Below, piece after piece: positions 7,327-60,324 of a DNA stretch of 64,000 bases. Origin of the DNA: a bacterium (GTDB lineage Bacteria > JAJVIF01); assembly GCA_022072165.1 (NCBI GenBank), contig JAJVIF010000001.1:1322598-1386597 (forward strand), written 5' to 3'. Every line of letters starts with the position of its first letter. Position 1 is the stretch's first letter. Position numbers and translations under genes: made by a program. The notes beneath the pieces are model-generated. The model searched no databases, was not told the origin of the DNA, and saw only the letters and a list, made by a program, of their open reading frames with translations.

Positions 7327-10300
7327 ATGGACCGGACAGCACCGGAGGATGCCGGACAAAGCGGTTGGGTGGCCGTGTCACGACTGGACACGTCGGTGCA
7401 GCATCAGTTGTTACTCGCCCTGGTGGAGCAATCTTTCGACGCCTGCTTTGTCCTCGATGGCGCCGGAGAGATTTTGGCGGTGAATCAGGCGGGTGGGTTG
7501 CTTTGCGGAATTGAACCTGCATCGATGCTGGGAAAGCCCCTCACTCAATTCCTGAGTCTGGCTGATGCTGTAGCCGCCCGGACACTGAATGACCTGTTGC
7601 AGGGAACTGGCGTCCTCACACTCTCCCGACGAGTCACACTCCGTTCAGGCCTGGATCGCGCCCTGGATCTCCAGGTGCAGCGAGTCCTCCCCGACTTCAC
7701 GCTCCTGACCGTGCGTGACAAGTCCATGATCCGGGCGCTGACCGCGACGCAACTTGCCGAGGAGACGAGATTCCGGCTCCTGATCGATGGACTCCCGGAG
7801 ATGGTCTGTCGCTTTTTGCCGGACCACACAGTGGTGTATGTCAATCCGGCGTTCTGCAGCTTCTTCAATAAGTCTGCCGCCGAGCTGGAAGGCCAGATCT
7901 ATAACCCCCTGGTAATGCCTGAAGACCTGCCGGAAGTCGAGGCACGATTGAGCCGGATCTCTGCCGAGCATCCGCAGGCGACTACGGTCAGCCGTGTGGT
8001 GCGCCGGGATGGGAGCTGGCGCTGGACCGAGTGGACTACCCATGGACTGTTTAATGCCCAGGGCGAACTGACAGAACTGATCTCGCTGGGACGGGACATC
8101 CATGAACGTCGGCTGCAGGAAGAGTCCCTTCGCGAGAACGAAGAGCGGCTGCGACTGGCCGCACAGGCGACCCGGGACTACATCTGGGACTGGAATCTGC
8201 TGACCAATGAGCTCACCTTTGGCGAATCCATGCGGCTCGTGGCACCCGGCGGCTGGCCTCCTCCGGCGGAAGCGTTCGCCTGGTGGAGTGAACGGATCCA
8301 CCCTGAGGATCGGGACCGGGTCACCCACAGCCTGGAAGCTGCCATCCGGGCAGACGAGAACTGGACGGATTCTTATCGCTTCATGCGTGATGACGGCTCC
8401 TGGGTGGAAGTGGTGGATCGCGGGCATCTGGTGCGGAATGAGCGGGGCGAAGTGATCCGGATGGTGGGATCCATGCTCGACCTCTCCGAGCATCGGAAGA
8501 TCGAAGAACAACTCGAACGGACCACGGAAAAGCTGCAATTCATGCTGAAGAGTTCCCAGGAAGGACTCTGGGAATACGACTTTCGAACGGGCGAAGTCTT
8601 CCGCAATCGCGCGGTCTGGGAAATGTTGGGGATGTCCCCCCAGGAAGAATCGACCTCCGGCGACTACTGGATTGAACGGACCCATCCGCAGGATGTCGCG
8701 CTCCTCTATGAGTCCTGGGAAACAACCCTCAAAGCGGGACGTCCTACCTGGTCCTGCAACTACCGCCTGCGCCACAGCGATGGACACTATCTGCACATCG
8801 CTGACCAGGGTTTCTTCATCTATGGCGCTGATGGATCTCCCCTGCGTGCCTTCGGCTCCATGACCGACCGGACCGAGCAGCATCGGGCCGAAGAGGAGCT
8901 CCGTAAACGCGAAGCGACCCTGGCGCTGGCTCAGACCATCGCACACCTGGGGAGCTGGGAGTGGGACCTGATCACCGGGACGCAGGTCTGGTCGGAGGAG
9001 ACCTTTCACATCTTTGGTTACGATCCCGAAACCACCACTCCTTCCCGGGCAACCTTCTTTGCTGCAGTTCATCCTGAAGATGCCGAGATGGTCCGCGTTG
9101 CGTTTGCCCAGGCCCTGGAGGGCGGCAAGCCATTCGATGTCGTGCATCGTGTGGTCCACTCCAACGGAGCCATTCGCTGGGCCAACGAGCAGTGCGAGAT
9201 CATTCGTGACCCCGGAGGCGCGCCGATCATGATTCAGGGCACGACTCTGGATGTCACAGAACGGGTCCGGGCCAGCGAAGAAATCCGGGAGCGGGAAGAA
9301 CGCTTCCGGCTCCTGGCGGACAGTTCCCCGGCACTGATTTATCTCGATGATGCCGAGGGAAAGCGGGAGTATGTGAATGTCCGCTGGCTGGAAGCCACCG
9401 GCAGCAGCCAGACTGCATTACTGGGGCTTGGCTGGCTCGACCGGGTCCACCAGGATGACATCGGCAACGTCATGGAGCGCTACCAGCAGTCGTTGCGGCA
9501 GCCTGAGCAGTACCAGATGGACTATCGACTGCGGTTTGCGGATGGGTCATGGCACTGGCTGCTGGACAGCGGCGCTCCCCGGTACGGCGGTGATGGCCGC
9601 TTCCTTGGGTTCATCGGCTCCTGCCTGGACATCACCGGCCGCAAAGTGACCGAGGACATGCAGCGACTTCTCTCACGACTGGGGGGTGTACTCACCGGGA
9701 GTCCGGATGTCGAGTCATCGCTGATACGCCTGGTTCAGCAGTGTGTCCCGGAATTGTGCGATCTCTGTCTGCTCGATTACCAGACCGATGACCCCGCTGT
9801 TGAAGCGAAGGAACTGCGACGTCTCGCGCTGGCACATCAGGACTTTAGTCTGCGTCAGCAGCTCATGGATCTGCTCCCAGCGACTGCGGCTGACTATCTG
9901 GTGTCCGGAGGCCTGGCGTGGGTATCTGCAACAAAGCAGACCCTGATGATTGAAAACAGTCTGACACCGGACAGTGCACTGAACCTCGCGCCCCTGGAAC
10001 CACGACTACAGGAACTTACGGATGGTCACTCCGGGCTCCTGGTCCCCCTGATCCTGCGGGGGGAGGTCCGTGGCGTGCTGACACTCATTAACACGTCGGA
10101 GCGGGGTACGTTGCATCCCACGATTCGCGACACCGCAGAAGAGATTGCACGTCGGACCGCGTTGGCGGTGGACAATGCGCGGCTGTATCACGCCCTGCAG
10201 CTGGCAGATCAGCGCAAGGAGGCGTTCCTCGCGACCCTGGCGCATGAGCTAAGGAATCCGTCAGCAGCGATCCTGAGTGCCGCACAGTTGCTGAGGATTC

Positions 10301-27834: not shown

Positions 27835-28386
27835 TTAGGCTTCCGGAACGGCAATGCGAAAGATGATGGGTCCAGTTTGCTGACGCTTGCGGAGGGCGAA
27901 GACCCTGACCTCATAGGTGCCCGCAATGGTGGGTTCCCAGAGGAAAGTCCCGCCGCTCATGCCTCCGCTGTAGCTGCTGTTGATGGACGGCGGATTCTCC
28001 CCTGCATTAACCCGGGAGATTTCGAGCCCCAGGTGATCCCCGATCTCCATCGGTGCGTTCGCAGCTGCCTTGAAGCTGATTTCCCAGGAGTTTGGCCCCA
28101 GGATAGGGGGCCAGGTGATTTTTTCGAGATTGATCCGGTCGCCCATGCTGTTGTGGACGGAGAGGACGTCCCCCGAAGTCACATCGAAGGTTTTGACTTC
28201 ATCCGGATCGGCCGCTGCCGGGGGAGTCGCTGGGGCGTCCGCCTGCGGCGCTCCCGCTGCCTGCACTCCCTGAGCCGGCGGCGGGTCACCTGCGGCCTGC
28301 GGTGACTTGCCCTGCTCTGCCGGGGGGGTGCCGCAGCCAGCGAGGAGGAGGAAGAAGAGAGCAGCGGGAAGGATGCGGGAGGTCAT
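27835..28386 (-). CDS. Small lipoprotein of unknown function
   Basis: This 183-residue protein has a lipoprotein signal (ALFFLLLAGC), a Pro/Ala/Gln-rich linker of about 55 residues, and a C-terminal beta-rich domain of about 110 residues that includes SGGTFLWEPTIAGTYEVRVFALRK, an Ig-like end. AGGAG lies upstream. It sits between the gene at 27082 and the large PrcB-repeat lipoprotein. Its function is unknown; export to the surface or periplasm is likely. Confidence 0.72.
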   Translation of the reverse strand: MTSRILPAALFFLLLAGCGTPPAEQGKSPQAAGDPPPAQGVQAAGAPQADAPATPPAAADPDEVKTFDVTSGDVLSVHNSMGDRINLEKITWPPILGPNSWEISFKAAANAPMEIGDHLGLEISRVNAGENPPSINSSYSGGMSGGTFLWEPTIAGTYEVRVFALRKRQQTGPIIFRIAVPEA

Positions 28387-28481
28387 GGACGGCGTAGCTC
28401 CTGGGGACCGAAGAGTGACGAGATGGTACCGCGTCAACTTCTTAGCAGTCGCCGGGCCATCCTGACAGCCGTCCAGCAAAA

Positions 28482-28507
28482 GCCCCCCAAAGCAGACTTT
28501 GGGGGGC
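28482..28507 (-). terminator. Intrinsic terminator of the PrcB-repeat gene
   Basis: GCCCCCCAAAG and CTTTGGGGGGC form an 11-bp stem with a CAGA loop, followed by TTTTGC on the minus strand, 35 bases beyond the stop at 28542. Confidence 0.85.
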
Positions 28508-28541
28508 CAACGCTGTTCAGGGCAAGTGGCAGTAGCCCGGC

Positions 28542-31406
28542 TTAAGGGCAGTGGTACTCCTGGTCATCGGCCTGGATGAACTCGACATCTGCCGCGACTC
28601 GGGGGATCGCGACCACGATGCTCCAGTTGCCGTCATCAAAGGGGCACTCTGCGTTGTAGAAGTCCCGGTGCCAGTCGACCCGGACCGGCTTTTCAGTGCC
28701 AGGTTCCGGCAGTTTGACACAGTCGATTACCGGCTGGCGCGTGATAGCCAGAACTCCCACGTTAATGGCCAGGACCATCTCCTGCTCGAAGTTCACCGGG
28801 GGCGGGGCGGAGCCGGGGTACCGGGAAGTCCAGTACTGCTGCCAGTGGCTGCCATCGCGGATGACCACCTCAGCGGGCCCGAACTGCTCGGACTGGCGGC
28901 CATCAGAGAGGAGGCGGAAATCCGTGCAGAGGGGGGGACAGGGCGGCGCGGTGGTCATCGACTCCCGCCACTCGACCTCCCCGGCAAACTTGTTGATCGA
29001 CACCACTTTGAGGGGTCGCCAGAAGCCCGGCGTCCCGCAGTTCGCCCCCGGGAAGATCTGGGTGTACTCCACGATGAGCTGGGGTGTGGCAGGTCGTTGG
29101 ATGCAGTCAATCCGGATCTGATGCGGGTTGAGGCTCACGGCACCAGGAGAAATCGCCAGCAACGAGCGGGTCTGGAAATTGATCTCCGGCGCTGGCGGCT
29201 CGTTGGGATACGCCTCCTGCCAGAAGAGGTTCCACTGCTCCTGATTCGTAATCAGCAGGCGGTACGGCCCATCCTTGTAGGAGACTTGCCGGTCGACGAC
29301 GACCTCGAAGGGCTCACAGGCGGGAGGCGGACAGGGCGCGCCCTGCTCCTCCCGGACTGTCCAGCGGACATTGCCGTTGAAGCGATTGAAGGCTGCGACG
29401 GCATACTGCTGATTCACGAAGGGCGGGCAGTTCTCGCCAGCGGAGATGATGGTGTAAACCACTTCGAGGTCCACGCCACCTACGCCGTTGGGGGTCCGCC
29501 GGATGCAGTCGATCACTACGCGGCGTCCGGGACTCGCGACTCCCATGGCGACCACACTCTGCTGCTCGAAATTCACCGGCGGTCGCGGGACATTGGGGAA
29601 CGCCTGAAGCCAGTACTGCTCCCACTGCACAATGTTGGTGATGAGCTGCTGATACGCCCCTTCTTTGAAATGGGGTTGATTCTGGATCAGCAACTGGAAC
29701 GGTTCACACGCCTGGGGCTCGCAGGGCGGAGCCTGGCGATCCCGTCGATCGAAAGTCGCGGCGGGCGTGAAGGGGATCACTCCGATATGTACCGGCGTGT
29801 TGATGATCTGCGGGGTCTCGCAGTTGGCACCCGGCGCTACGCCCTCCCAGCCGACATCAACCCGCTCCAGTGGAATCCCAGGACCCGGCGTGGGATTCGC
29901 CTTGAGCTCGATGATGTTGGCGTTATAGCCCTGACGTGAGGCGGACCCGACGGAGACCACCAGCACCCTTTCGGTGGCGAAGTCGACGCAGGGGACCGGT
30001 CCGGGGACCTGCAGCACCTGCCAGAGTTCCTGCAACTGTCCTGGCTGCTGGAGCATCAATTCCCGCGGGGGCTGACCGGCAGCCGGCGTGGTGCCATGGA
30101 AGAGCGTCTGGAACGGAACGTTGCCCAGCCCGCACTCAGTGATCCGCTGGGACTGCCGCCAGGCGACGGCGTTCCACTTCGGTCCCAGCCACATCCGGAA
30201 CGGGGAGGTCATGACGGTCTGTACACCGCATCCAGCGCCTGGACTCACAGTCGAGTAGCAAAGTTCCGGCAGGAGGCTGGAATGGGGCATGAGCGACGGC
30301 AGCACGGCATAGCCGCTTGTGGGCCGACTCCCCATGAAGGCAGCGTAGACGTTGAAGCACTGGAAGTTCACCGGCGGCGGGGCAGAGCCCGGCTGATGTT
30401 CCGCCCAGAGCTGCTGCCATTCGGCGGGGTTCGTGATCAGCTGTTCCCGGCCCTGCTGAATCGCGGAGTGCTGCCCATCGACCAGCGGTCGGAAAGGAGC
30501 ACCACCGGCACCATCGGAACAGGGTTCGGGGGTCGAGTTAAAGCCGATTTCATTCTCGAAGTGGAAGCCCGCCGAGTCATCAGCGCGGACCACCAGCCGG
30601 TCCTGCGGGCCGCTGCCAGGGATGGTGCCGCTCCAGATGTTGTCGCCAGCGATGGCATCCGGCGCTTCCCCGATGTCGTTCATTGAGTAGAGCACCGGCA
30701 GTGGGGACCCAGGGAAAAAGGCATTCACCTGCAGCGGGACATTGTTGGCCTGCCAGTCGATGACCAGTGCGGAAATGGTGGTGCCTTCGAGGGTCAGATT
30801 TTCAACAATCGGTTCCTGTCGGGCGGTCGGGAACGACGCATCGAGGTAGAACCGGAGTCCACCAAAGTTCGTAGCTCCCTGGGGCCACTGGATCCGAATC
30901 TGCCCTTCCAGCGATGACCCACCAAGGAAGCGACGTCGTTCCTGATCCTTACCGATGGCCACGACCGGCTTGCGCTGCCCGAAGCCAGGAGCCGCCGGAT
31001 AATCGCCCCCCCGCTCGGGGGTCGCGAAGCCATCGGGACCCAGAATCCGGTTGCCGTTCAGGTTGTAAAACGCTACCCAGAGTCCAAAGGCGGTGTACCG
31101 GGTTTTGTTGGTGAAACGCGCATGGATGTCCCAGATGCGGGTCACCGGATCGTAGTTCGTCTCCAGCAGGTCGACCTGGACGTAGGGGTCGACTACCAGC
31201 TGACCGGTCCGTTCATCGATCGCCTGCAGCACCGGGCTGCCAGTGGCATCCAGGGCCAGCTCATAGGCTCCCCACATCGAGCTTTGAGGCGGATCGGCCT
31301 GCTGGGGTGTCGCCGGTACAGCAGGTGACTTCTGCCTGCTACAGGCACTGAGCATGAACGCCAGCAAACAGACGGCGAGCATGAGACGGGAGATGGCGGT
31401 CCACAT
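28542..31406 (-). CDS. Large lipoprotein with five PrcB_C-like repeats
   Basis: This 954-residue protein has a lipoprotein signal (LAVCLLAFMLSAC). Residues about 30-290 form a beta-rich first part. About five repeats with a period of roughly 130 residues follow, each with the PrcB_C layout 'LITN..eW..lW…PPVNF….v..a…G…I.CI', beginning near residues 322, 452, 589, 719 and 849 (LITNPAEWQQLW, LMLQQPGQLQELW, LITNIVQWEQYW, LITNQEQWNLFW, VIRDGSHWQQYW). In Treponema denticola, PrcB helps to assemble the surface dentilisin protease; here the repeats may scaffold or guard exported proteins (inference). I chose 31406 because a GGGAG site lies nine bases before it. Confidence 0.83.
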   Translation of the reverse strand: MWTAISRLMLAVCLLAFMLSACSRQKSPAVPATPQQADPPQSSMWGAYELALDATGSPVLQAIDERTGQLVVDPYVQVDLLETNYDPVTRIWDIHARFTNKTRYTAFGLWVAFYNLNGNRILGPDGFATPERGGDYPAAPGFGQRKPVVAIGKDQERRRFLGGSSLEGQIRIQWPQGATNFGGLRFYLDASFPTARQEPIVENLTLEGTTISALVIDWQANNVPLQVNAFFPGSPLPVLYSMNDIGEAPDAIAGDNIWSGTIPGSGPQDRLVVRADDSAGFHFENEIGFNSTPEPCSDGAGGAPFRPLVDGQHSAIQQGREQLITNPAEWQQLWAEHQPGSAPPPVNFQCFNVYAAFMGSRPTSGYAVLPSLMPHSSLLPELCYSTVSPGAGCGVQTVMTSPFRMWLGPKWNAVAWRQSQRITECGLGNVPFQTLFHGTTPAAGQPPRELMLQQPGQLQELWQVLQVPGPVPCVDFATERVLVVSVGSASRQGYNANIIELKANPTPGPGIPLERVDVGWEGVAPGANCETPQIINTPVHIGVIPFTPAATFDRRDRQAPPCEPQACEPFQLLIQNQPHFKEGAYQQLITNIVQWEQYWLQAFPNVPRPPVNFEQQSVVAMGVASPGRRVVIDCIRRTPNGVGGVDLEVVYTIISAGENCPPFVNQQYAVAAFNRFNGNVRWTVREEQGAPCPPPACEPFEVVVDRQVSYKDGPYRLLITNQEQWNLFWQEAYPNEPPAPEINFQTRSLLAISPGAVSLNPHQIRIDCIQRPATPQLIVEYTQIFPGANCGTPGFWRPLKVVSINKFAGEVEWRESMTTAPPCPPLCTDFRLLSDGRQSEQFGPAEVVIRDGSHWQQYWTSRYPGSAPPPVNFEQEMVLAINVGVLAITRQPVIDCVKLPEPGTEKPVRVDWHRDFYNAECPFDDGNWSIVVAIPRVAADVEFIQADDQEYHCP

Positions 31407-31659
31407 GTGAACGCTCCCAGATAGCGAATGGAGGTGGGAAAAGGCAGTTCTGCCAGGACGTGCAGCGTTATGGTCCCCTACGGTGCCGAAGGATGTCAAG
31501 GGCAAACGTGGTTCGCACAAGTCGGGAACTTTGGCCTGTGAGCGACGTCAAACCTGCCACTAACGGGATTACTGGCGCTCCCGCTGGCAGCTTCGACGCG
31601 TTCCCTGAGCGCGCTTCTTTCAAAACCCATCTCTTTTGGAGCACAAAGGAGTACTCCCC

Positions 31660-32307
31660 ATGCGCCGATTTCTCTGCGGCCTGCCGCTGCTGGTGCTGAC
31701 AGTCGCGCTGGCTGGCTGTTCTGGGGGCTCGACCCCGGTCGCGACCGATCTGGACCGTAGCGCCACGGAAGCCGGTGGCGGCTCTCCGCCCCAGCCGCCC
31801 CGGGGCTGTCCCCGCTTCTTCGACATCATCCTGTCTCATCGGGGGCCGGGACCGGACCCCATCACCCACCCCGGGCATCTGATGGTGGATGCCTGTGTCA
31901 ATCCGAACGAGCCGAATCACGCCGCCATCGCCTTCAAGCTTCGGGAGGGGGATCACATCCTCCGGATTCCGGGGATCAGCGTGGACTGCCCGGAGGGCGC
32001 GAACGGCGAATGCTTCCGTGGGCATCGGCTCGAGGAGCGGGGGAACGACGAGCGGGGGGTCCGGATTGTCTGGAACACCGCCTTCAGCATTCGCGAAACG
32101 AACCAGGGTCCCCGAGTGATGGGGGAACTGATCCGGAACCGCACCCGCTGGTTCACCCGGCCGAACGGCGAGAAGCATGAGGACTTCGATCGACTGGTGC
32201 TGCAGTTCCAGGGACGCCCTGGCGCGGCTCCGCCGCCTCCCCCACCCCCGCCGCCGCCGCCTCCGGGTGATGGTGGTGGTGACAGTGGTGGTCCCGGTAA
32301 CGGCTAA
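31660..32307 (+). CDS. Lipoprotein of the RTRW family, copy 1
   Basis: This 215-residue protein has a lipoprotein signal (LLVLTVALAGC). The central domain shares a C-terminal motif with the next two genes: here RNRTRWFTRPNGEKHEDFDRLVL, in the others RLRTRWFLNRDGS and RVRTRWTIDRNGE. Two mature-domain cysteines lie near CPEGANGECF. It ends with a proline run (about 12 prolines) and a Gly/Asp tail. AAGGAG precedes the ATG. The family is not one I recognise; surface location is likely. Confidence 0.75.
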   Translation: MRRFLCGLPLLVLTVALAGCSGGSTPVATDLDRSATEAGGGSPPQPPRGCPRFFDIILSHRGPGPDPITHPGHLMVDACVNPNEPNHAAIAFKLREGDHILRIPGISVDCPEGANGECFRGHRLEERGNDERGVRIVWNTAFSIRETNQGPRVMGELIRNRTRWFTRPNGEKHEDFDRLVLQFQGRPGAAPPPPPPPPPPPPGDGGGDSGGPGNG

Positions 32308-32357
32308 TCTCGCACGCGCAGACTCCTGACTGACGCCATCACCGATCGTCAGTCCCG

Positions 32358-32384
32358 GCATCCCCGACGCATCGTCGGGGATGC
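32358..32384 (+). terminator. Intrinsic terminator after RTRW copy 1
   Basis: GCATCCCCGACG and CGTCGGGGATGC form a perfect 12-bp stem with a CAT loop, followed by TCTGCTTTTG. Confidence 0.85.
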
Positions 32385-32572
32385 TCTGCTTTTGGGCTCT
32401 GGCACTTGCAGCGCGCAGTACGCCAGAGATCTGCCAGATATGTGTCAAACATTTACACAGGACCTGTAAGCTACATTCAGGGCCGCTAAATAGCCCAGCA
32501 GTTCCATTGTGTCACCCGTCAGATATTAGCCATAGCACTGCATCCCGCGACTCGTGTCAGGAGCTCCAGCCT

Positions 32573-33253
32573 ATGTCAAGCGTCCGACCAGTCTGCTGCG
32601 CCCTCGCGACCGCGCTCCTGTTGAGCGCCTGCGCCGGCTCCTCTCAACCCCCGACCTCCAATGAAACCCCCGCGCTGCGTCCGACGCCCGCCGACGCTCC
32701 CATTAGCGACAACCCCTTCCTTGATGACCTCCCTGCCGATTCTGACAGCGATCGCACCGGCGCTGGCGGAGATTTGGGAAGCGCTGACCCCGCCTGCGAG
32801 CACAAGTTCAAGCTGGATCTCTTCGTCGCTGGCACCGGCGACCGTCCAGACTGGTACGGCCATGGCCGGCTCCGGGTCAATCCCTGTGTCTCGCCCTTTG
32901 CGGACCACGATGGCGAGATGCGGGTCCGGCTCCCCGATGTGAACCGCGGGGTGAATGTCCGGATGCACAAGCAGGAGGACTCCACCGAGACCGAGCGCCA
33001 CTATGTCGGGCGCAAGCTCGCTGGCAAAGGGGGCGACTCCCAGGCCTCCCTGGTGATGTGGGAGATCGATGCCCGGGTCACCAATCACAGCGTGCATCCC
33101 TACGTCCGAACGAACGGGTCGGTGACCAGGCTCCGGACCCGTTGGTTCCTGAATCGTGATGGCAGCCTGTCGCAGAGTAACGATGAGCTGGTCGCGACGT
33201 TCACGGGCGTTCCGACTCCTGAGCAGGAACCCAAGAAGTGTAAGGACCTCTAG
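32573..33253 (+). CDS. Lipoprotein of the RTRW family, copy 2
   Basis: This 226-residue protein has a lipoprotein signal (LATALLLSAC). A Thr/Pro/Asp linker is followed by the family domain: a strand-rich part from about 75 (FKLDLFVAGTGDRPDWYG) and the closing motif VTRLRTRWFLNRDGS…LVATFTGVP. I chose the ATG at 32573, with GGAG upstream, over the longer frame that begins inside the previous terminator region. Confidence 0.75.
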   Translation: MSSVRPVCCALATALLLSACAGSSQPPTSNETPALRPTPADAPISDNPFLDDLPADSDSDRTGAGGDLGSADPACEHKFKLDLFVAGTGDRPDWYGHGRLRVNPCVSPFADHDGEMRVRLPDVNRGVNVRMHKQEDSTETERHYVGRKLAGKGGDSQASLVMWEIDARVTNHSVHPYVRTNGSVTRLRTRWFLNRDGSLSQSNDELVATFTGVPTPEQEPKKCKDL

Positions 33254-33283
33254 GGATCTTCCGTGCCCGGCTGTGTGACGTCT

Positions 33284-33310
33284 GCACCGCGCTGCTTGCC
33301 AGCGCGGTGC
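33284..33310 (+). terminator. Terminator-like hairpin after RTRW copy 2
   Basis: GCACCGCGCTG and CAGCGCGGTGC form an 11-bp stem with a 5-base loop, followed by TTCTGTTTG. It lies 31 bases after the stop. Confidence 0.75.
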
Positions 33311-33363
33311 TTCTGTTTGTGGCCAGGACACGCAAGGGGGAGGGGACCAGCGCATCTGTCAAT

Positions 33364-33406
33364 GCAGGGGACCAGTCTGGCTGGCACCCTGCGACTGGTC
33401 CCCTGC
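33364..33406. repeat. Perfect 14-bp inverted repeat upstream of RTRW copy 3
   Basis: GCAGGGGACCAGTC at 33364-33377 and GACTGGTCCCCTGC at 33393-33406 flank a 15-base loop. The half-site GGGGACCAG also occurs once more just upstream as a direct repeat. No T-tract follows. It could be a protein binding site or a hairpin in the leader of the gene at 33491. Confidence 0.6.
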
Positions 33407-33490
33407 TGGGAGCCGACAGAAGCGCGTTGAGCCACGAAGCTATGGACATCAAGCAGCCCTGCTGCATCGACGACCCAAGGACACCTTCCC

Positions 33491-34270
33491 ATGACGCGCT
33501 TCCCCCTCCTGCTGACAGCCCTGGTGACCACCCTCGGCCTGGCGGCCTGCTCCGGTGCCACGACCAGCCCCCTCGCCCCGGCGAACAATCCTGTGCATTC
33601 GGCGCAGGTGCTGCCCGGTGATCCGTGCAACTCTCTCTTTGAAGTCAGCATCATCGTGCCTCCGGAGCACCGTGATGAAATCGGCGATCTGCCGGGGACG
33701 TTCCTCCTCAACACCTGCCCGCCATCCGGCACTGAGGGCGATGCCCTGATGACCCTGACTGCCTACGAGCGAAATGAGTCGATCACCATTCCTGGGTTTG
33801 AGGATTTGTCGGCCGAAGTGCCGACCTGGAATGGCACCCGCGAAATTGTCCGCATCGAGCCTGACAAGGGCCGTGAAATTCGCTGGACCATGTCGGCCAG
33901 CATCACCACCAACAGCGTGACGGCGAATCGAGTGGACGGCACCCTGAGCCGGGTACGGACTCGCTGGACCATCGATCGCAACGGCGAGCGCCGGGAGCGC
34001 CATGACACCTTGTCGCTGAGTTTTTCCGGCTTCCAGATTTCGAGTGAAGCGCCCGGTGCTGGGCAGCCCGGCGGCGACGACAACGGCGGCGGACAGGGGG
34101 CTGATGACGGCCCGGGCGACGACAACGGGGGCGACCAGGGGGCAGATGACGGCCCGGGCGACGACAACGGTGGCGATGAGGGGGCAGATGACGATGACCA
34201 CGGTGGTCACGACGACGACGATGAGGATGACGACGACGACGACGATGAGGATGACGACGACGACGACTAG
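33491..34270 (+). CDS. Lipoprotein of the RTRW family, copy 3, with an Asp-rich repeat tail
   Basis: This 259-residue protein has a lipoprotein signal (ALVTTLGLAAC). Residues about 45-180 form the family domain, ending LSRVRTRWTIDRNGERRER…LSLSFSGFQ. The last 70 residues are low complexity: a 14-residue unit (GDDNGGDQGADDGP) occurs about three times and is followed by an almost pure run of Asp with a few Glu and His. Such acidic tails often bind calcium or other cations. In the DNA the unit is a 42-bp tandem repeat (about 34070-34200). The ATG follows an AAGGA-like site. Confidence 0.78.
   Translation: MTRFPLLLTALVTTLGLAACSGATTSPLAPANNPVHSAQVLPGDPCNSLFEVSIIVPPEHRDEIGDLPGTFLLNTCPPSGTEGDALMTLTAYERNESITIPGFEDLSAEVPTWNGTREIVRIEPDKGREIRWTMSASITTNSVTANRVDGTLSRVRTRWTIDRNGERRERHDTLSLSFSGFQISSEAPGAGQPGGDDNGGGQGADDGPGDDNGGDQGADDGPGDDNGGDEGADDDDHGGHDDDDEDDDDDDDEDDDDDD
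34070..34200 (+). repeat. 42-bp tandem repeat inside the acidic tail
   Basis: About three copies of a 42-base unit (centred on GGCGACGACAACGG and GGCAGATGACGG) keep the reading frame and code the 14-residue unit. The copies differ at few bases, which suggests recent expansion or slippage. Confidence 0.7.
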
Positions 34271-34304: not shown

Positions 34305-34329
34305 CAGGCCCCCGGATCCCGGGGGCCTG
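34305..34329. terminator. Bidirectional terminator between convergent genes
   Basis: CAGGCCCCCGG and CCGGGGGCCTG form an 11-bp stem around ATC, between the ends of the RTRW copy 3 gene and the methyltransferase gene. T-rich sequence follows weakly on the plus strand (TACGTTTAC). Confidence 0.65.
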
Positions 34330-34334
34330 TACGT

Positions 34335-35357
34335 TTACTCGGAGGATGTGGCCTCAGCGGCTGCTTCGGGCTCTGCCCCAGGGGCATGGCTGGCGAGTTC
34401 GCTGAGGACCTCCTCTTCCCGGCGCGGGGGCTCGCCCCGTTCCAGTACCAACATGCCATAGACCTGCCGCACGCCTTCATCCCGGGCCACGACCGGCACG
34501 AAGGCCAGTTCTTTGAAGCCCGCGAGGGCCTGCAGGATCCGGAGGGCTTCGGCGTTGACCTGATCCGGAAGGCGCTCCATCAGGATCAGCGTCCCGCCGG
34601 GACGAATCGACTGCATCAGGGTGTAGAGGACCGCGGCGTTGTAGCGCATCGCATGGCTACGCTGCAGGAAGCGGGCGCGGTCGACCTGCGCTTCCAGCGC
34701 GTTGTACTGCACCCGCATTTCATTGGTCATGGCGATGATGCGCCAGAACGCAGTGGTGCTGACAGCCCCGGCGGCGTTGCGGACGGGAATCAGCCGCAGT
34801 ACATCGGCGGTGTCGAAGCGGACATTTTTCAGTCCCAGGGCCTGGGCATCCCGACGGGCAGTCTTGAGGGTCGCGGGGACCCGGTCGAGGCCGAGAAACT
34901 GCAGGTCGGGTCGCTGCTGCGCGTAAAAGTTGGTCAGCATCCCGGTGCAGCAGCCGATGTCGACGATGGTCCCTTCGGGGGGGAGATGCTCTACGACCCG
35001 GGGACCGGTCTGTCGCAGGTAGTCGTACCGGGTGCTCAGGAGCGCTCTGGCGGTGTTGGCATCGCTGAAGGTCTCGTAGAACGCCACATCATCGGTGTAG
35101 CGCGCCGCCCCCTCTCGTCCGCGACGTTGCCGGAGTTCTTCCACCTTTGCACAGCGTTCCGGTCCCAGGAGTTCCCGTACCCAGCCATAGAAGCGCTGGG
35201 GACCCTCGGCGTCATCGAACGGGAGCACTCCATGGGCTGCCAGATGGGCGGTGATCGCAGCATCCTGCTCTGGAGTCAGGGGAGTGGGTACCAGTTCTGG
35301 CGGCAGCCCGTCGAAGGATTCTGGGGCGGGTGGGGGCATGGTCTCCGGCGCGGACAT
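34335..35357 (-). CDS. SAM-dependent methyltransferase
   Basis: This 340-residue cytosolic protein has a class I methyltransferase core at about 100-290. Motif I is GTIVDIGCCTGMLTNFYA (the usual DIGxGxG form is altered to GCCTG), then the acidic end of strand 2 (FLGLDRV), and 'RFDTADVLRL'. The first 95 residues are helical and may be a substrate-specific cap; the C-terminal 30 are Glu/Ala/Pro-rich and disordered. The substrate is unknown. AAAGGA lies nine bases before the start. Confidence 0.75.
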   Translation of the reverse strand: MSAPETMPPPAPESFDGLPPELVPTPLTPEQDAAITAHLAAHGVLPFDDAEGPQRFYGWVRELLGPERCAKVEELRQRRGREGAARYTDDVAFYETFSDANTARALLSTRYDYLRQTGPRVVEHLPPEGTIVDIGCCTGMLTNFYAQQRPDLQFLGLDRVPATLKTARRDAQALGLKNVRFDTADVLRLIPVRNAAGAVSTTAFWRIIAMTNEMRVQYNALEAQVDRARFLQRSHAMRYNAAVLYTLMQSIRPGGTLILMERLPDQVNAEALRILQALAGFKELAFVPVVARDEGVRQVYGMLVLERGEPPRREEEVLSELASHAPGAEPEAAAEATSSE

Positions 35358-37860: not shown

Positions 37861-39891
37861 ATGTTCACCCGGTCCGCCTGGCTGCTCGCAGGAGTCCTGG
37901 GCTTTCTGACGCTGCTGGGGGTCCTGATCCGGCTGGTGCCCCGGTGGCAGGCGGAGCAGGCGCATCGGCAAGTCGCCATCATTCTCGATTTTCAACAGAT
38001 GTTTACCCGCGCGCAGGATGAAGGCTTCCCCATTGAAGACTGGCTCGATGAGCTGAAACTGGCCGGATTCGACCATCTGGCGCTGAGCGAGGACAACCCA
38101 CTGTGGCTGGAGCAGCGGGGGTACTGCACGGTGGTCGAGGGCTTCCTGGTTACGAAGTCAGTCCCCCAGAAAGATTTGCACAAAGAAGGCTTTCAGCCAC
38201 TGCTGACGCCGGAACAGCAAAAGGCGCAGAAGGCGAAAGAGAAGCCGGAGTTTTCGTTCATCCCCGAGGACAAGCTGGCAGCCCAATTTTTGCAGTTGTC
38301 CCATGGCGATCTGCATCTGCTGTTCCCGCAGGAACCCGGGGGGGGGAATCTCACGGCTGTACTTGTGGCCCGGGCCGCTGAAATGCGGCTCGGTGCGGCG
38401 CGGGTGACCATTGAGGATCGCCCCGCTGACGGTGTCGTGGTGGTGAGCCTCCGGGGAGATGTCGAAGACCTGGTGAAGCTCGGGCTGGGGTATGTCACGC
38501 CGACGTATCGGGAGCTCAAGGGTCGGGGGTTCGCTCTCGTACCACGACTCCGCAATCAGCGCGGATTGCCGGTCACGACCCATGTCCAGGCGATCCTGCG
38601 GGAGGCCTGGAAGGTGCAGTCGCCCGGACCAGGACTGCTGATCTTCGAAGGGGATGAGGTGCTGGGCTTTCCGAAGGCGATGCCCGAAACGACAGAAGCG
38701 CTGCAAGCCCAGCCCTGGCTCTTCGGCTTCGTGGAGTTCGCCAAACAAACGGGGGACAAGTCGATAGCGGACCAGATGGTGCCGCACATCGTGCGGGTCC
38801 ATTCCATCAGCGACGAGGAAATGGAGATTTACACGCCGGAGCGGGCGTTGCGACGCTATCTGCTGGCAGCGACTGAGCGGAATGTCCGGGCGATTTACCT
38901 CAAGCCCTTCCATATGGAGCTACAGGGAGTGAGCCTGCGTCAGTTCAACACGGAGTACTTCGGACGAGTCCGGACCGCTCTTGAAGGCGCAGGTTTTGCG
39001 GTTAGTTCCATCGACAACGGAACCATCCGCAATGGGTTGGGTCCGTGGCCGGTGCAGGACTTCGTACCGCCCCCCTCGCCACTGCAGAATCTGGCGGCGC
39101 TGCTGGTCGCGTTTTTCGCCCCACTGCTGGCCGTGTCGCTGCTGGCGACCCGCCTCCCCACATTTCTGGACCGCGCCGACCGGGGCGATGGCTTCGGGGC
39201 GGGTGCCATCGCGATCCTCTGGGTCTGGGGCTGGGGACTGGCGGCAGCGCTCCTGGTAGCGGCCCTGTTGTCGGAATCGCATTACATGCTGCAGACGCGG
39301 TCGTTCAGTGGCGTCACCCTGGCGCTCCTGGGACCGGTCGCCTTGTCAGCGGTGCTCTGGGTGCGGATTCTGGTGGCAAATCCCCCTGTCCGGATCTGGG
39401 AGCAGGCGGCCCTCCTGGGGGACTTCCCGGTCCATGTCAAGCATCTGGCAGCCGGAGGCATTGTCCTGCTCGCCGCCATGATCGTCGTGCTGCGGAGCGG
39501 CAATGAGCCGGTTGGTGGGGTGTCGCCAATTGAGCTTGCCTTCCGCGCGTTTCTCGGGGACCTGCTGGATGTACGCCCCCGCACGAAGGAGTTCCTCATC
39601 GGACACCCCGCACTGGTCCTGGGGTGTTACCTGCTGTTTCAGTCGCGACGCATCCTTCGTCCGTGGGCTTTCCCGCTCCTGGTGCTGGGACTCCTCGGCA
39701 CTACCAGCTTCATCAACACGTTCCAGCATCTCCACACGCCACTTTCAATCAGCCTCGCACGGACTTTCCTCGCGATGGGAATGGGCGTGGTGCTTGGCGG
39801 ACTCGGGGCTATCGTGATTCATCTGGCAGCGCGCTGGTTCCTGCTTCCGGACGCGCCGGTGTCGGGTGACACGGCCATAGAGGCTTCATGA
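37861..39891 (+). CDS. DUF5693 family membrane protein
   Basis: This 676-residue protein has an N-terminal membrane helix (about 5-25), an extracytoplasmic region to about 415 (with 'LDELKLAGFDHLALSEDN' near the start), and a C-terminal part with about seven or eight membrane helices. The layout and its fusion in frame order with csaB match the DUF5693-CsaB pairs known from several S-layer-bearing phyla. The family role is unknown, but the linkage suggests flipping, export or assembly of the pyruvylated cell-wall polymer (inference). The stop overlaps the csaB start by four bases (ATGA). Confidence 0.83.
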   Translation: MFTRSAWLLAGVLGFLTLLGVLIRLVPRWQAEQAHRQVAIILDFQQMFTRAQDEGFPIEDWLDELKLAGFDHLALSEDNPLWLEQRGYCTVVEGFLVTKSVPQKDLHKEGFQPLLTPEQQKAQKAKEKPEFSFIPEDKLAAQFLQLSHGDLHLLFPQEPGGGNLTAVLVARAAEMRLGAARVTIEDRPADGVVVVSLRGDVEDLVKLGLGYVTPTYRELKGRGFALVPRLRNQRGLPVTTHVQAILREAWKVQSPGPGLLIFEGDEVLGFPKAMPETTEALQAQPWLFGFVEFAKQTGDKSIADQMVPHIVRVHSISDEEMEIYTPERALRRYLLAATERNVRAIYLKPFHMELQGVSLRQFNTEYFGRVRTALEGAGFAVSSIDNGTIRNGLGPWPVQDFVPPPSPLQNLAALLVAFFAPLLAVSLLATRLPTFLDRADRGDGFGAGAIAILWVWGWGLAAALLVAALLSESHYMLQTRSFSGVTLALLGPVALSAVLWVRILVANPPVRIWEQAALLGDFPVHVKHLAAGGIVLLAAMIVVLRSGNEPVGGVSPIELAFRAFLGDLLDVRPRTKEFLIGHPALVLGCYLLFQSRRILRPWAFPLLVLGLLGTTSFINTFQHLHTPLSISLARTFLAMGMGVVLGGLGAIVIHLAARWFLLPDAPVSGDTAIEAS

Positions 39892-41003
39892 AGCGACTGG
39901 TGCTGTCCGGGTATTACGGCTACGGCAACCTCGGGGATGAGGCGATTCTTGCCGCGATCCTAGATCAGCTGCGACTCCGTGAAGTGGAGACGGTGGTCCT
40001 CTCCAGCAATCCGGCCTGGACCAGCGAGGTCCATGGCTGTCGGGCGCTGAAGCGGACCGCCCTGGGTCCGGTGACCGGCGCACTGGCGCGGGCCGATCTC
40101 TTCGTGCAGGGCGGGGGGAGTCTCATTCAGGACGCCACGAGCTGGCGGAGTCCGCTGTTCTATCTGGCGCAGTTGCTTCATGCACGGATCGCCGGGACTC
40201 CCTGGATGTTGCTCAGCCAGGGCATCGGTCCCATTCAGCGGGGCTGGTTGCATTACCTGACCCGGGAGACGCTGGTCCATGGCGCGGCGTTGACGCTCCG
40301 GGACACCGCATCGCTGGCGTGGGCGCTGGGGAATCTCCCCCACGACCTGCCGATCCGGCTGACAGCGGATCCGGTCTTCCTGCTGGAGCCCGCTGATCCC
40401 CAAAGAATCGAGTGGCTAACGGAAACCTCCGGACTGGCGGATGTGCCGCGTCCGTGGGTGTTTGTCTCGGCAAAAGGAAGCACGAAGCATCCGACAGAAC
40501 GTCAGGCGTGGATCGAAGGGCTTAATGCGCTGGCGATGGAGATCGGGGGGTCGATCATCCTCGCGCCGTTTTTCCCCACGATGGACCGGGGCTTCACCAC
40601 GATGCTGCAGCGAGAGCTGCAGAGTCCGCAATTGCTGCTCCCCGACACGCTGACACCGCAGGAGATGCTCGGACTCTATGGCCAGGCAGCACTGGTGCTG
40701 GCGGGTCGGCTGCATCCGCTGATTTTCGCGGCGAATCGCCGGGTCCCCTTCGCGGCGATCAGCTACGACCCGAAGATGGACGCCGCCTGCGCGGAGTTCG
40801 ATTTGCAGCCCGTGGCACGGCGTCCGCTGCTGGGGTGGAGGACGATGGTCGACGGGATGCTCGATGTCCTGGAAGACACGCGCTGGGAGGAGCGGTACGC
40901 GACAGTCCTGCCGCTCCTGGAGCGTCGGGCGCTGGACGCTTTTGCGGTGCTGGATCAGGTGCTCGCCGGGGCCTTGCGGGGGAGCGCGGTCACGGTGGAT
41001 TAG
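39888..41003 (+). CDS. csaB: Polysaccharide pyruvyl transferase CsaB
   Basis: This 371-residue enzyme transfers pyruvate from phosphoenolpyruvate to a sugar of a secondary cell-wall polymer, creating the ketal that S-layer-homology domains bind. It shows the family start LVLSGYYGYGNLGDEAILAAIL, LFVQGGGSLIQDATSWRSPLFYL, 'GIGPIQRGWLHYLTRETLV', and the C-terminal RLHPLIFAANRRVPFAAISYDPK. It is translationally coupled to the DUF5693 gene. The window contains no SLH-domain protein, so the S-layer gene lies elsewhere if present. The stop shares TTAG with the convergent phosphatase gene. Confidence 0.92.
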   Translation: MKRLVLSGYYGYGNLGDEAILAAILDQLRLREVETVVLSSNPAWTSEVHGCRALKRTALGPVTGALARADLFVQGGGSLIQDATSWRSPLFYLAQLLHARIAGTPWMLLSQGIGPIQRGWLHYLTRETLVHGAALTLRDTASLAWALGNLPHDLPIRLTADPVFLLEPADPQRIEWLTETSGLADVPRPWVFVSAKGSTKHPTERQAWIEGLNALAMEIGGSIILAPFFPTMDRGFTTMLQRELQSPQLLLPDTLTPQEMLGLYGQAALVLAGRLHPLIFAANRRVPFAAISYDPKMDAACAEFDLQPVARRPLLGWRTMVDGMLDVLEDTRWEERYATVLPLLERRALDAFAVLDQVLAGALRGSAVTVD

Positions 41004-56143: not shown

Positions 56144-58948
56144 TTACCAGGTACCGTCGCCCGTGATGCGACTGACATAGTGGTCCGGGAAGAAGATGTC
56201 CGCACTCTGGAGCACCCGGTTGCAGGAGGGGTCGGCATCGAAATTCGACCCTTTGATGTAGCCGATGTGATGCAGAGAGTTGGGGCCGGTCCACTCGATC
56301 CGGGTCGGGCGGGCGGTGCCGGCTCCCCCGATCCAGCCATCCCACTGCCAGGTGCCATCGGAGGCGAAGCGGGCGAAAATCGCGGTGTCAGTGTTATCGG
56401 TAATGGTGATCTGCGGCCCACCAAGCGAGAGGGATCGCCTGGAAAACCCCGCCAGCACGAGATCACCCGCCGTGTTCACTGTCAGGCCTCCGTATTGCAG
56501 GGCGATGCCATCTGGCGCGGGGAAATTGATGCTCCACTGATGCGCTCCGGCGGAGGAGTACTGGGCCATGCAGGTCTCGAAATTCGTCCCGGATCCGGGG
56601 AGCGGACCGCCTCCCAGATCGAGGATACCGATGTGCTCGGCAACAATGGTGACTCGTCCGGTCCCATCGATCACCACCGCACGACCTTCATCGTAGCCGG
56701 TGTTGCCATAAGTCCGGAGCCACTCGACCTCACCATCGGCAGCGGCCAGTCGCGCCAGGAAGATGTCCTTTCCGCCATTGGAGGTGGCCGGCGTGGTGCC
56801 GAAGTTCGCAGACGCGCTGAAGCCACCGGTAATGTAGACATTGCCGTCGGCGTCGAACGCTGTGCCGTACCCCGTATCCCAGCCACTGCCCCCGAAGATG
56901 CCGGACCAGCGATGAGAGCCATTGTTGTTGAAGGTGGCTGCGACGATGTCTTCTCCACCCGCCGTGGAGAGCGGTCCTCCGCCAAAGTTCACGGAGCCAC
57001 CGGAGTACCCAATGATCGTGATTGCGTCATCAGGACCCAGATCCATCTCCAGGCCGTAGTTAAAGCTGGAGCCGCTGTAGCTGGCGCTGAACTGATGGTT
57101 CCCATCGGGGTCAAAGCGCGCGAGGAAAATGGCCTGTGTACCTGAGACCGGCAGCGGTCCTCCACCGAGGTCGAGCGCTTTCCGGTTGTGCCCGACCAGC
57201 CAGAGCCGATCCTGGCTGTCGATGACCAGATCGCTGAACCGTTCGTCATCGGTGCTGCCCCAGGTGCGATCCCACACGAGCGTGCCGGTGGGGGTGAACC
57301 GGAGCAGGAAGACATCCTCGCCTCCGACTGTTGTGCGTTCACCCGCTCCAAAATCAGTTTTGTAGTAGAAGGTTCCCGCGACAAATACATTCCCTGCGCT
57401 GTCTACCGCAACGGCAGCGGGTCCGGCATCGTTGGTCATCGAAGAGCCAAAGGAAGTGAGCCAGCCGACACCGGTTGGTGGGGGGCAGGGGTCACCGAGC
57501 TTGACGATAAACGGATGGAAGGTGACGGGGGTCGGGAAATCGCCGGTAGCAGGTGTGAGGTCGGGATTGAGGGGGGTGAGATACGACGACTGATTGTTTC
57601 CTTCCACATCGGTGACCCGGAGCCAGGCGAGGTAATCCCCGTTGACCTGACCGGACCCGGCGGGCTTGGTGACATCGACCTGGAAAAACAGGGGGTCACC
57701 GTCATAGCCCGAGTCCTGGGCAGCATCGCCGCCATATTCACGGTCATCATCCACCGGGACATTGGGGAGGTTAACGACCGTAGAACGTCCGCCCAGCACG
57801 CCGGGAATGCAGAGCGCCAGGAGCGGAATGCCCGACTCGCCCTGCGCCACTTTGATGGCGTTGGGCTCCAGCTTCAGTGAGGACTCCGTGGTTTCCGTCG
57901 CCCGGGCATCCCAGTCGATGACATGGAAGCGCAAGGTTGATGTGCTCTCAATGTTCGGCGACCACCCTTCGGAGGGGCCGCGGAACCAGGCGCGGGGGAC
58001 ATCCAGCGCTCCGTGAGGCATCCGGTAGCCAAACTTGGTGACGACATCATCGGCCGCCGCATCCGTGATCGGCACGGGCAGCCGGTGCAATACGCCCGGC
58101 GTCCCGGACTTGGGATCGGCATACTTCGCCAGCAGCACCGTATTGACGCTAAAGGGTCCGGTTTGGAGCATCGCGTTACTGATGAGAATGGAGTTTTTCG
58201 CGAACTGTCCCTGATGCAGGACTCCGAAGCCCGCCCATTCGTCGGAGTCCTGGAAGTGCCAGCCCCAGGGCGTGCCGAAGTTTCCCTGCCCCGAGACCGA
58301 ACCAACAATCTCGCCGGTCTTCTGGCGGTACCGGTTTCGGTTGATGTCATCGCGCACCAGCACTTTATATGGAAAGGCGTTGGCGGTCAGACCGGTGGTG
58401 TTGACCAGCGACTTGGGCTGGAAATACCCATCGGCATCCAGGATCCACCGGGGATCCGTAATGAGATCGGAAGTGCCGGTGAACCAGGTGTAGCCCCCGG
58501 CATTCGGGACATCGAAGCCGAACAGCAGCATGGCTGAAAATCCCAGATCAGCCCGGTTGGAGATCGAGGAATCCGGGAAGGGATGCCGGACTTCGTAGCT
58601 CAGCTCAAGCCCCTGCATAGTGCGTCGGACTCCTGTGATCCGGAGGTTGCTGGGGGTGAAGAACTGCTCCAGCGATAAGGCGAAAACCGCATCGTTATCC
58701 TGGAGGCTCCGGGTGGGGAGGATCTCCCAGGTGGCGTTCAGGGTTGACGGGTCCACCGTGAGGCGACCGGGAGCGATCGCCCCCTGCAGGATCCCATCGG
58801 CGGTCTGCAGCATCGCGCCGGGCTGGAACAGCGCCCCTGCCGGACGGTGATCGTCGCTGGTGAGGGGGTTTGCTTTAGATGAACAGGACACCAGACTCAG
58901 GGCGAGCAGGCCGAGACTTCCGGCCAGTAGGTGCGTGCGAGTGGACAT
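56144..58948 (-). CDS. Large lipoprotein with SBBP-type beta-propeller repeats
   Basis: This 934-residue protein has a lipoprotein signal (LLALSLVSC). The first 450 residues are beta-rich; the C-terminal half has at least six SBBP-like repeats of about 50-60 residues with the 'vD..GNvYvtG.f' strand: VDSAGNVFVAGTF, IDSQDRLWLVGHN, FDADGNVYITGGF, 'VNTAGDLVLAGFS' and others. SBBP propellers are found in exported proteins of unknown role. GGAGG lies nine bases before the ATG at 58948. Confidence 0.86.
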   Translation of the reverse strand: MSTRTHLLAGSLGLLALSLVSCSSKANPLTSDDHRPAGALFQPGAMLQTADGILQGAIAPGRLTVDPSTLNATWEILPTRSLQDNDAVFALSLEQFFTPSNLRITGVRRTMQGLELSYEVRHPFPDSSISNRADLGFSAMLLFGFDVPNAGGYTWFTGTSDLITDPRWILDADGYFQPKSLVNTTGLTANAFPYKVLVRDDINRNRYRQKTGEIVGSVSGQGNFGTPWGWHFQDSDEWAGFGVLHQGQFAKNSILISNAMLQTGPFSVNTVLLAKYADPKSGTPGVLHRLPVPITDAAADDVVTKFGYRMPHGALDVPRAWFRGPSEGWSPNIESTSTLRFHVIDWDARATETTESSLKLEPNAIKVAQGESGIPLLALCIPGVLGGRSTVVNLPNVPVDDDREYGGDAAQDSGYDGDPLFFQVDVTKPAGSGQVNGDYLAWLRVTDVEGNNQSSYLTPLNPDLTPATGDFPTPVTFHPFIVKLGDPCPPPTGVGWLTSFGSSMTNDAGPAAVAVDSAGNVFVAGTFYYKTDFGAGERTTVGGEDVFLLRFTPTGTLVWDRTWGSTDDERFSDLVIDSQDRLWLVGHNRKALDLGGGPLPVSGTQAIFLARFDPDGNHQFSASYSGSSFNYGLEMDLGPDDAITIIGYSGGSVNFGGGPLSTAGGEDIVAATFNNNGSHRWSGIFGGSGWDTGYGTAFDADGNVYITGGFSASANFGTTPATSNGGKDIFLARLAAADGEVEWLRTYGNTGYDEGRAVVIDGTGRVTIVAEHIGILDLGGGPLPGSGTNFETCMAQYSSAGAHQWSINFPAPDGIALQYGGLTVNTAGDLVLAGFSRRSLSLGGPQITITDNTDTAIFARFASDGTWQWDGWIGGAGTARPTRIEWTGPNSLHHIGYIKGSNFDADPSCNRVLQSADIFFPDHYVSRITGDGTW

Positions 58949-59016
58949 GCTGAGTTCCTCCGAAAAGACAGAGAAGTGACGATTCATCACGCCGGGTTCC
59001 CCAACTCCACTGGGGG

Positions 59017-60324
59017 TCAGGCGCTGACGGGCATCCCGATCAGCTGGGTTCCATTCCATTGGAGCGCCAGCCGGGCGACTGCCGGACGATCCGGGAACAG
59101 CATCGGATCAATCGCGCAGGTAGCGTAATTATCAGCGACACCCTGCAGTCCCGTACATACCTCGGAATGTGGCCATTCCAGCACGCAGCGCCGTGCCGCC
59201 CCGTGCTGACGTGCCGCGAAAGCGGTCCGCTTCCGGGCATCGATGCCCTGCAGGAGCTGCATCCGGTGCGCCTTCTGTGGGGGCGACACCTGGTCCACCA
59301 TCGCGGCGGCCCGGGTCCCCTCCCGGGGCGAATACGGAAACAGATGGGCGTAGTCCAGGGGCCCTTCCGCGAGATAGCGCGCCGTCGCGGCGAAGTCCTC
59401 ATCGGACTCCCCGGGGAAGCCGACAATGAGGTCCGTGCCGAGGCAAGTCGCGGGATTCCAGGCTTTGAGCTGCTGGCAGATGGCATCGAACTGCGCGAGG
59501 GTGTACGGCCGCCCCATGCGTCGGAGGATCGGATCACTCCCTGCCTGGAGCGGCAGATGGAAATGGGGACAGACTCGATGGCTTGTTGCGATGGCATCCA
59601 GGAAGTCGGCGTCGACCTCCATCGGTTCCAGCGATGACACCCGGATGTCCACCAGGTCCAGGGCATCGAGGGTCCGGATCAGCCCCGCCAGAGAGGTCCC
59701 ATGATCCCGGCCGTAGCCCCCTAAGTGCACGCCGGTAAGCACGACTTCCGGGTAGCCCTGCGCCGCGTAGTCCCTTACAGCCTGTACGACCTCGTCGGGG
59801 GAAACGGAGCGCTCTTTGCCGCGCGCGACGGGGACGATGCAGAACGCACAACGGAGATGACATCCCTCCTGGACCTTTAGGAACGCCCGGGCCCGCTGCC
59901 TGGAGGTGGGGGCGGCGGGGAGTTGGAGGGGCGCGACCTGCTGGACATCGCCCACATAGGTCCGGGGAGCAGCTTCTTTCAGCAGATCACAGGGGAGGTA
60001 CTGCGTCAGGTCGTACTTTTCACGATTCCCCAGGATGAGGTCGAGGCCCTCCTGGCGGGCGGCGATCTGAGGGGCCACCTGGGCGTAGCAACCGGTGAGA
60101 ACCACATAGGTCTTCGGATTGCGTCGGAGGGCCTGACGTATCGCCTTTCTGGCATCACTGTCGCCCCGGTGAGTGACGGTACAGGAATTGATGACCACTA
60201 CGTCGGCGGGATCTGTGCTGCTGACCAGCCCGAAGCCAGCCTCGATGAGGGCATCCTCGAGGAGCTGACTTTCATGCTGATTGACCTTGCAGCCGAAGGT
60301 CCTGACGGAGGCAGTACGGAGCAT
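59017..60324 (-). CDS. mtaB: tRNA threonylcarbamoyladenosine methylthiotransferase MtaB
   Basis: This 435-residue radical-SAM enzyme adds a methylthio group to the t6A at position 37 of tRNAs. It has the N-terminal UPF0004 domain with three cluster cysteines (FGCKVNQHES, INSCTVTH, TGCYAQ), the radical-SAM motif EGCHLRCAFCIVP with C-x3-C-x2-C, and a C-terminal TRAM-like part. 'TFGCKVNQHES' and the length point to MtaB rather than MiaB or RimO. The start at 60324 is leaderless, nine bases after TACAAT. Confidence 0.93.
   Translation of the reverse strand: MLRTASVRTFGCKVNQHESQLLEDALIEAGFGLVSSTDPADVVVINSCTVTHRGDSDARKAIRQALRRNPKTYVVLTGCYAQVAPQIAARQEGLDLILGNREKYDLTQYLPCDLLKEAAPRTYVGDVQQVAPLQLPAAPTSRQRARAFLKVQEGCHLRCAFCIVPVARGKERSVSPDEVVQAVRDYAAQGYPEVVLTGVHLGGYGRDHGTSLAGLIRTLDALDLVDIRVSSLEPMEVDADFLDAIATSHRVCPHFHLPLQAGSDPILRRMGRPYTLAQFDAICQQLKAWNPATCLGTDLIVGFPGESDEDFAATARYLAEGPLDYAHLFPYSPREGTRAAAMVDQVSPPQKAHRMQLLQGIDARKRTAFAARQHGAARRCVLEWPHSEVCTGLQGVADNYATCAIDPMLFPDRPAVARLALQWNGTQLIGMPVSA

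Follow-up and report, generated by a model that had tools for sequence, protein, structure and literature searches.

A five-unit PrcB-domain lipoprotein and a neighbouring trio of orphan lipoprotein paralogues: one surface system or two adjacent sets?

Do the four lipoprotein genes at positions 28542-34270 of the DNA analysed here belong to one surface system, or do they simply lie side by side? The DNA, referred to below as the window, is a stretch of 64,000 nucleotides from contig JAJVIF010000001.1 of the bacterial assembly GCA_022072165.1 (GTDB lineage JAJVIF01). A first-pass annotation, made from the sequence alone, had described a large lipoprotein with PrcB_C-like repeats opposite three tandem lipoprotein genes that share an RTRW motif, and had proposed that together they might form a surface display or adhesion system.

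Five PrcB units in one lipoprotein

The large protein consists of an N-terminal domain followed by five tandem units, laid out as follows:

28542-31406, minus strand: PrcB-repeat lipoprotein gene, 954 aa, lipobox LSAC (C22)
about aa 45-293, minus strand: N-terminal domain, conserved in the phylum
aa 294-954, minus strand: five tandem PrcB units, the C-terminal 660 residues
30138-30527, minus strand: unit 1, aa 294-423; loop GSRPTSGY; Pfam PrcB_C 20.6 bits
29727-30137, minus strand: unit 2, aa 424-560; the most diverged, loop partly kept (GSASRQGY)
29337-29726, minus strand: unit 3, aa 561-690; loop lost
28944-29336, minus strand: unit 4, aa 691-821; the model covers 28929-29345, short flanks included
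28545-28943, minus strand: unit 5, aa 822-954; holds the best stretch for NCBIfam denti_PrcB (aa 830-885)

The description of a 954-residue lipoprotein with five repeats is confirmed by the lipobox and by phmmer comparison of the units with one another: they are 130-137 residues long, all five recognise each other (E 3e-4 to 7e-27), and 500 shuffles never reached the observed score for 9 of the 10 unit pairs. Codon-position base composition is coding-like in this gene, as in all three genes of the trio. The N-terminal domain also occurs alone, in a 309-aa lipoprotein of the same genome (L039:5111-6040, minus strand; 35% identity), and one sister genome, G002, carries many copies of such a stand-alone lipoprotein.

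The window protein scores 20.6 bits against Pfam PrcB_C (PF14343), under the cut-off of 24, which left its assignment in doubt. That doubt is gone, because both its orthologues and its own units point to the same family. The phylum is represented by four genomes including this one, and each of the three others (the sisters) has an orthologous PrcB lipoprotein with the same N-terminal domain; these score 110.7, 122.4 and 40.1 bits, above the cut-off. The first two are about 1000 aa long with five PrcB_C matches each, and the third (40.1 bits) is interrupted by the end of its contig. In the reverse direction, an HMM built from the five units of the window protein picks up PrcB proteins encoded in other phyla (E 5e-14 to 2e-3), so the match suggested at first is upheld in profile searches. 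The mark of the family, a GxRPTxGY loop, is kept in unit 1 of the window protein and partly in unit 2, but units 3-5 have lost it, which would explain the weak Pfam score; most units in the sister genomes retain it. Cysteines recur in the units and linkers of this phylum's PrcB repeats, whereas single PrcB domains mostly lack them.

PrcB_C is found above its cut-off in 28 of 192 sampled genomes, 25 of them outside this phylum, where there is nearly always one copy per genome. A plasmid search with the PrcB-repeat protein gave a single weak PrcB-like match, in Nostoc, and a search for literature naming PrcB_C as a domain returned nothing relevant. From the sister scores and the hits in other phyla we conclude that a widespread domain has, in the five-unit lipoprotein, taken on a tandem-repeat form specific to this lineage. 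PrcB_C is also found as the outer domain in a zf-HC2 anti-sigma factor of another phylum (L054:6760-7788, minus strand; the same protein is present in L043), whose gene is adjoined on L054 by a sigma-factor-like gene (7781-8359, minus strand); this arrangement suggests that PrcB domains can act as sensors.

Structure prediction, which had been put forward as a check on all four proteins, succeeded for one PrcB unit. The AlphaFold model of unit 4, built from an alignment of 12 sequences from the window and related loci, is confident (pLDDT 92, pTM 0.85) and mostly beta with one helix, and it gave no match at E <= 0.001 among PDB structures and viral models. As modelled, the unit has no solved structural relative in these two collections, a claim that stops short of a new fold.

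Three diverged paralogues with unlike tails

The genes on the opposite strand are the following:

31660-32307, plus strand: RTRW lipoprotein 1, 215 aa, lipobox LAGC; core 31801-32220, RTRW motif at 32140; polyproline and Gly/Asp tail
32573-33253, plus strand: RTRW lipoprotein 2, 226 aa, LSAC; core from 32786, motif at 33134; short plain tail (KKCKDL)
33491-34270, plus strand: RTRW lipoprotein 3, 259 aa, LAAC; core 33617-34033, motif at 33956; Asp-rich tail with tandem repeats

An SPII signal with lipobox and cysteine is present at the N-termini of the PrcB protein and all three trio members (LSAC, LAGC, LSAC and LAAC, respectively). The trio members are indeed tandem paralogues, as had been claimed: their cores share 24-33% identity over ~140 aa, with alignment z of 16-18 and no score as high among 2000 shuffles. 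Among the invariant positions are two cysteines of the core, one tryptophan and the RTRW motif. A ribosome site is visible before each gene (AAAGGAG, AGGAG and AAGGA), again as first described. At the DNA level, similarity among the genes is nearly gone, with a framework kept and the rest strongly diverged, so the duplication is old. The tails are just as unlike as they had seemed (polyproline, plain and Asp-rich). That of lipoprotein 3 contains tandem repeats with a period of 42 nt at 34073-34193 (91% matches) and of 24 nt at 34209-34267 (100%), and this Asp-rich tail is young. We dropped the idea that such Asp-rich tails recur throughout the genome: just one further gene with an Asp run was found in it, encoding an unrelated protein with a biotinyl/lipoyl-type domain and a long Asp/Glu tail (L063:3116-3667, plus strand).

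Searches for relatives of the trio were uniformly negative. The core has no family match in Pfam, NCBIfam, PHROGs or PDB sequences, and what matches there are fall on the lipoprotein signal (LPAM_1, invert_tail and the signal parts of LptM, all sub-threshold); heparinase II/III chains, which came up in the PDB sequence search with the trio profile at E 0.28, were rejected as chance. No homologue was found elsewhere in the genome, in the phylum's other three genomes, in 384 other genomes or on plasmids. Scanning 84,980 species genomes and viral contigs for patterns turned up no copy either, short exact peptide patterns being a kind of probe that misses distant relatives. Unlike that of PrcB unit 4, the predicted structure, made from three sequences, is of low confidence (pLDDT 38) and not usable for a fold search. 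As far as these searches reach, the trio is an orphan family with this single locus.

What might such proteins do? Small, orphan, diverged tandem paralogues that contain a disulfide, with a framework kept and the remainder strongly diverged, fit a family of binding proteins or inhibitors, and the RTRW lipoproteins could be small inhibitors of secreted enzymes, or ligand binders, that were amplified for different targets and have no connection with PrcB. No fold, family or partner was found that would speak for this, and we give it very little credence. In our preferred reading, an orphan lipoprotein gene was duplicated in tandem long ago to give the trio, and each member would have a lipid anchor joined by a flexible linker to a small beta-rich domain that holds the conserved cysteine pair, followed by a fast-changing low-complexity tail; "beta-rich" here reflects the sequence pattern and the low-confidence model (pLDDT 38) and is provisional. 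The domains would sit at the envelope surface, and their tails (polyproline, none and Asp-rich) may provide different contacts, for example with wall, matrix or cations. The trio will add little to understanding until relatives or a structure are found.

Transcription units, neighbours and the envelope

The case for a single system depends on how the genes are arranged, and the following features bear on it:

28450-28541, minus strand: strong intrinsic terminator of the PrcB gene, hairpin GCCCCCCAAAG followed by TTTT; fold z -5.65
27835-28386, minus strand: fifth lipoprotein gene, 183 aa, LAGC, downstream of the PrcB gene
32357-32385, plus strand: terminator hairpin after lipoprotein 1; z -4.2
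33284-33310, plus strand: terminator hairpin after lipoprotein 2; z -2.5
34305-34330, no strand assigned: perfect GC hairpin after lipoprotein 3, between convergent genes, no T-run; z -3.8

The first two had been overlooked in the first-pass annotation, which credited two of the trio genes with terminators; in fact each of the three is followed by a hairpin, the one after the third having no T-run. This last hairpin is probably a shared terminator of the convergent genes. With a hairpin after every trio gene and a strong terminator behind the PrcB gene, each of these genes seems to be transcribed as a unit of its own. For the fifth lipoprotein, neither the phylum nor Pfam yielded a relative.

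In a single surface system, the PrcB-repeat protein would serve as scaffold or stalk and the RTRW lipoproteins as interchangeable displayed or bound subunits, for display or adhesion. Consistent with this, five lipoprotein genes are contiguous, the PrcB gene and that of lipoprotein 1 are divergent with a gap of about 253 bp that is compatible with a shared control region, and the tails vary and carry fresh tandem repeats. A crude lipobox screen puts the share of lipoprotein genes at roughly 9% (27 of about 310 genes sampled outside the window), and a hand calculation gives about 0.015 expected chance runs of five in 3000 genes. When the trio is counted as one duplicated gene, however, about two such runs are expected by chance, and adjacency alone is therefore weak evidence. 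Against a joint system stand the terminator-like hairpin for every gene, the lack of profile similarity between the trio and the PrcB protein (hhalign found no relation of the trio to the N-terminal domain or to the PrcB units), and the single known trio locus. In addition, in all three sisters the PrcB-repeat genes have other neighbours, and the trio is found neither beside them nor anywhere in the genome. Its absence is weak evidence by itself because ordinary neighbours are not conserved at such a distance, as illustrated by the flanking genes at 27835-28386 and 34335-35357, which have no relatives in the sister genomes; the argument for independence is drawn from three distant sisters in a phylum of four genomes only. 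Taken with the separate transcription units, the sister PrcB lipoproteins that occur without a trio and the lack of a protease among the genes called nearby, these observations lead us to set aside the proposal of one display or adhesion system as unlikely.

Some diderm envelopes have an outer membrane tethered through SLH motifs to a pyruvylated polymer. Two proteins of this genome (L090 and L091) each carry one SLH motif, a stretch resembling a coiled coil and a barrel-like C-terminus whose last residue is F, and in the window a DUF5693 gene is followed by one for a CsaB-type polysaccharide pyruvyl transferase (37861-41003), a pair for envelope polymer modification. Together, these predicted proteins fit a diderm with an SLH-tethered outer membrane, and lipoproteins may therefore sit in either membrane. 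Several other lipoproteins of ~880-970 aa are encoded in the genome (L061, L062, L064, L071 and L073), unrelated to the PrcB-repeat protein by the searches made, and another of this size class, with no Pfam match, lies in the window at 56144-59059 (minus strand).

On balance, we favour, as a reasonably probable explanation, two unrelated sets of envelope lipoproteins that lie side by side in a lipoprotein-rich diderm genome. In such an envelope the PrcB-repeat lipoprotein would be a lipid-anchored, multivalent binding scaffold, its cysteines forming disulfides that stiffen the repeat into a rod, and its units may bind partner envelope or secreted proteins much as T. denticola PrcB binds and stabilises PrtP. 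As unit 1 alone keeps the GxRPTxGY loop in the window protein, binding may rest mainly on this unit, with units 2-5 as spacer. A more ambitious picture, in which a disulfide-braced PrcB-repeat stalk with no solved structural relative and orphan lipoproteins with differing tails make up a lineage-specific envelope assembly, strikes us as distinctly improbable. More broadly, PrcB occurs in 28 of the 192 genomes, in one phylum as five-unit repeats and, in an anti-sigma factor, as the outer part, a spread that suggests a general module for binding outside the cytoplasm.

Comparison with dentilisin and other PrcB proteins

The name PrcB invites comparison with Treponema denticola, in which PrcB binds PrtP, is needed for PrtP expression at the cell surface, and has been proposed as anchor and stabiliser of the complex there (PMC8167434). 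The parallel drawn at the outset holds insofar as the PrcB-PrtP interaction is documented in the literature, but it is weak for the window protein, which matches NCBIfam denti_PrcB (NF033596) in four stretches with 52.2 bits (E 6e-14), far short of the equivalog cut-off of 125, and has no protease gene called nearby. Among the genes called in the window and next to the sister genes there is no prcA, no prtP and no other protease gene, and the five Peptidase_S8 (subtilase) genes of the genome all lie away from the PrcB locus.

Those five genes, along with the four-stretch profile match and the known interaction, leave some room for a dentilisin-like role, the PrcB repeat holding and stabilising at least one secreted protease whose gene lies at another site in the genome. 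No protease gene is called at the locus or beside the sister genes, and the equivalog score falls short, which makes this improbable; PrcB_C is, moreover, not protease-specific, since many genomes have it and an anti-sigma factor carries it as its outer part. The window protein is to be filed as a PrcB-domain protein and not as a dentilisin PrcB.

With dentilisin PrcB (NF033596/PF14343) it shares an N-terminal lipoprotein signal, a PrcB domain confirmed by profile in the family, and, by analogy, probable binding of an envelope partner. However, dentilisin PrcB is a 23-kDa lipoprotein encoded in an operon with prcA and prtP, whereas the window protein has 954 aa and adjoins neither gene. It also differs in its five tandem units, its extra N-terminal domain, the cysteines in units and linkers, the absence of the GxRPTGGY loop from most units, and scores that miss both curated cut-offs. 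The lipoproteins of other phyla with a single PrcB and the PrcB_C anti-sigma factor (L042, L045 and L043) have the same domain by reciprocal profile comparison; in these other-phyla proteins there is one unit, without conserved cysteines and with the loop kept, while the window protein has five units, has cysteines and has mostly lost the loop.
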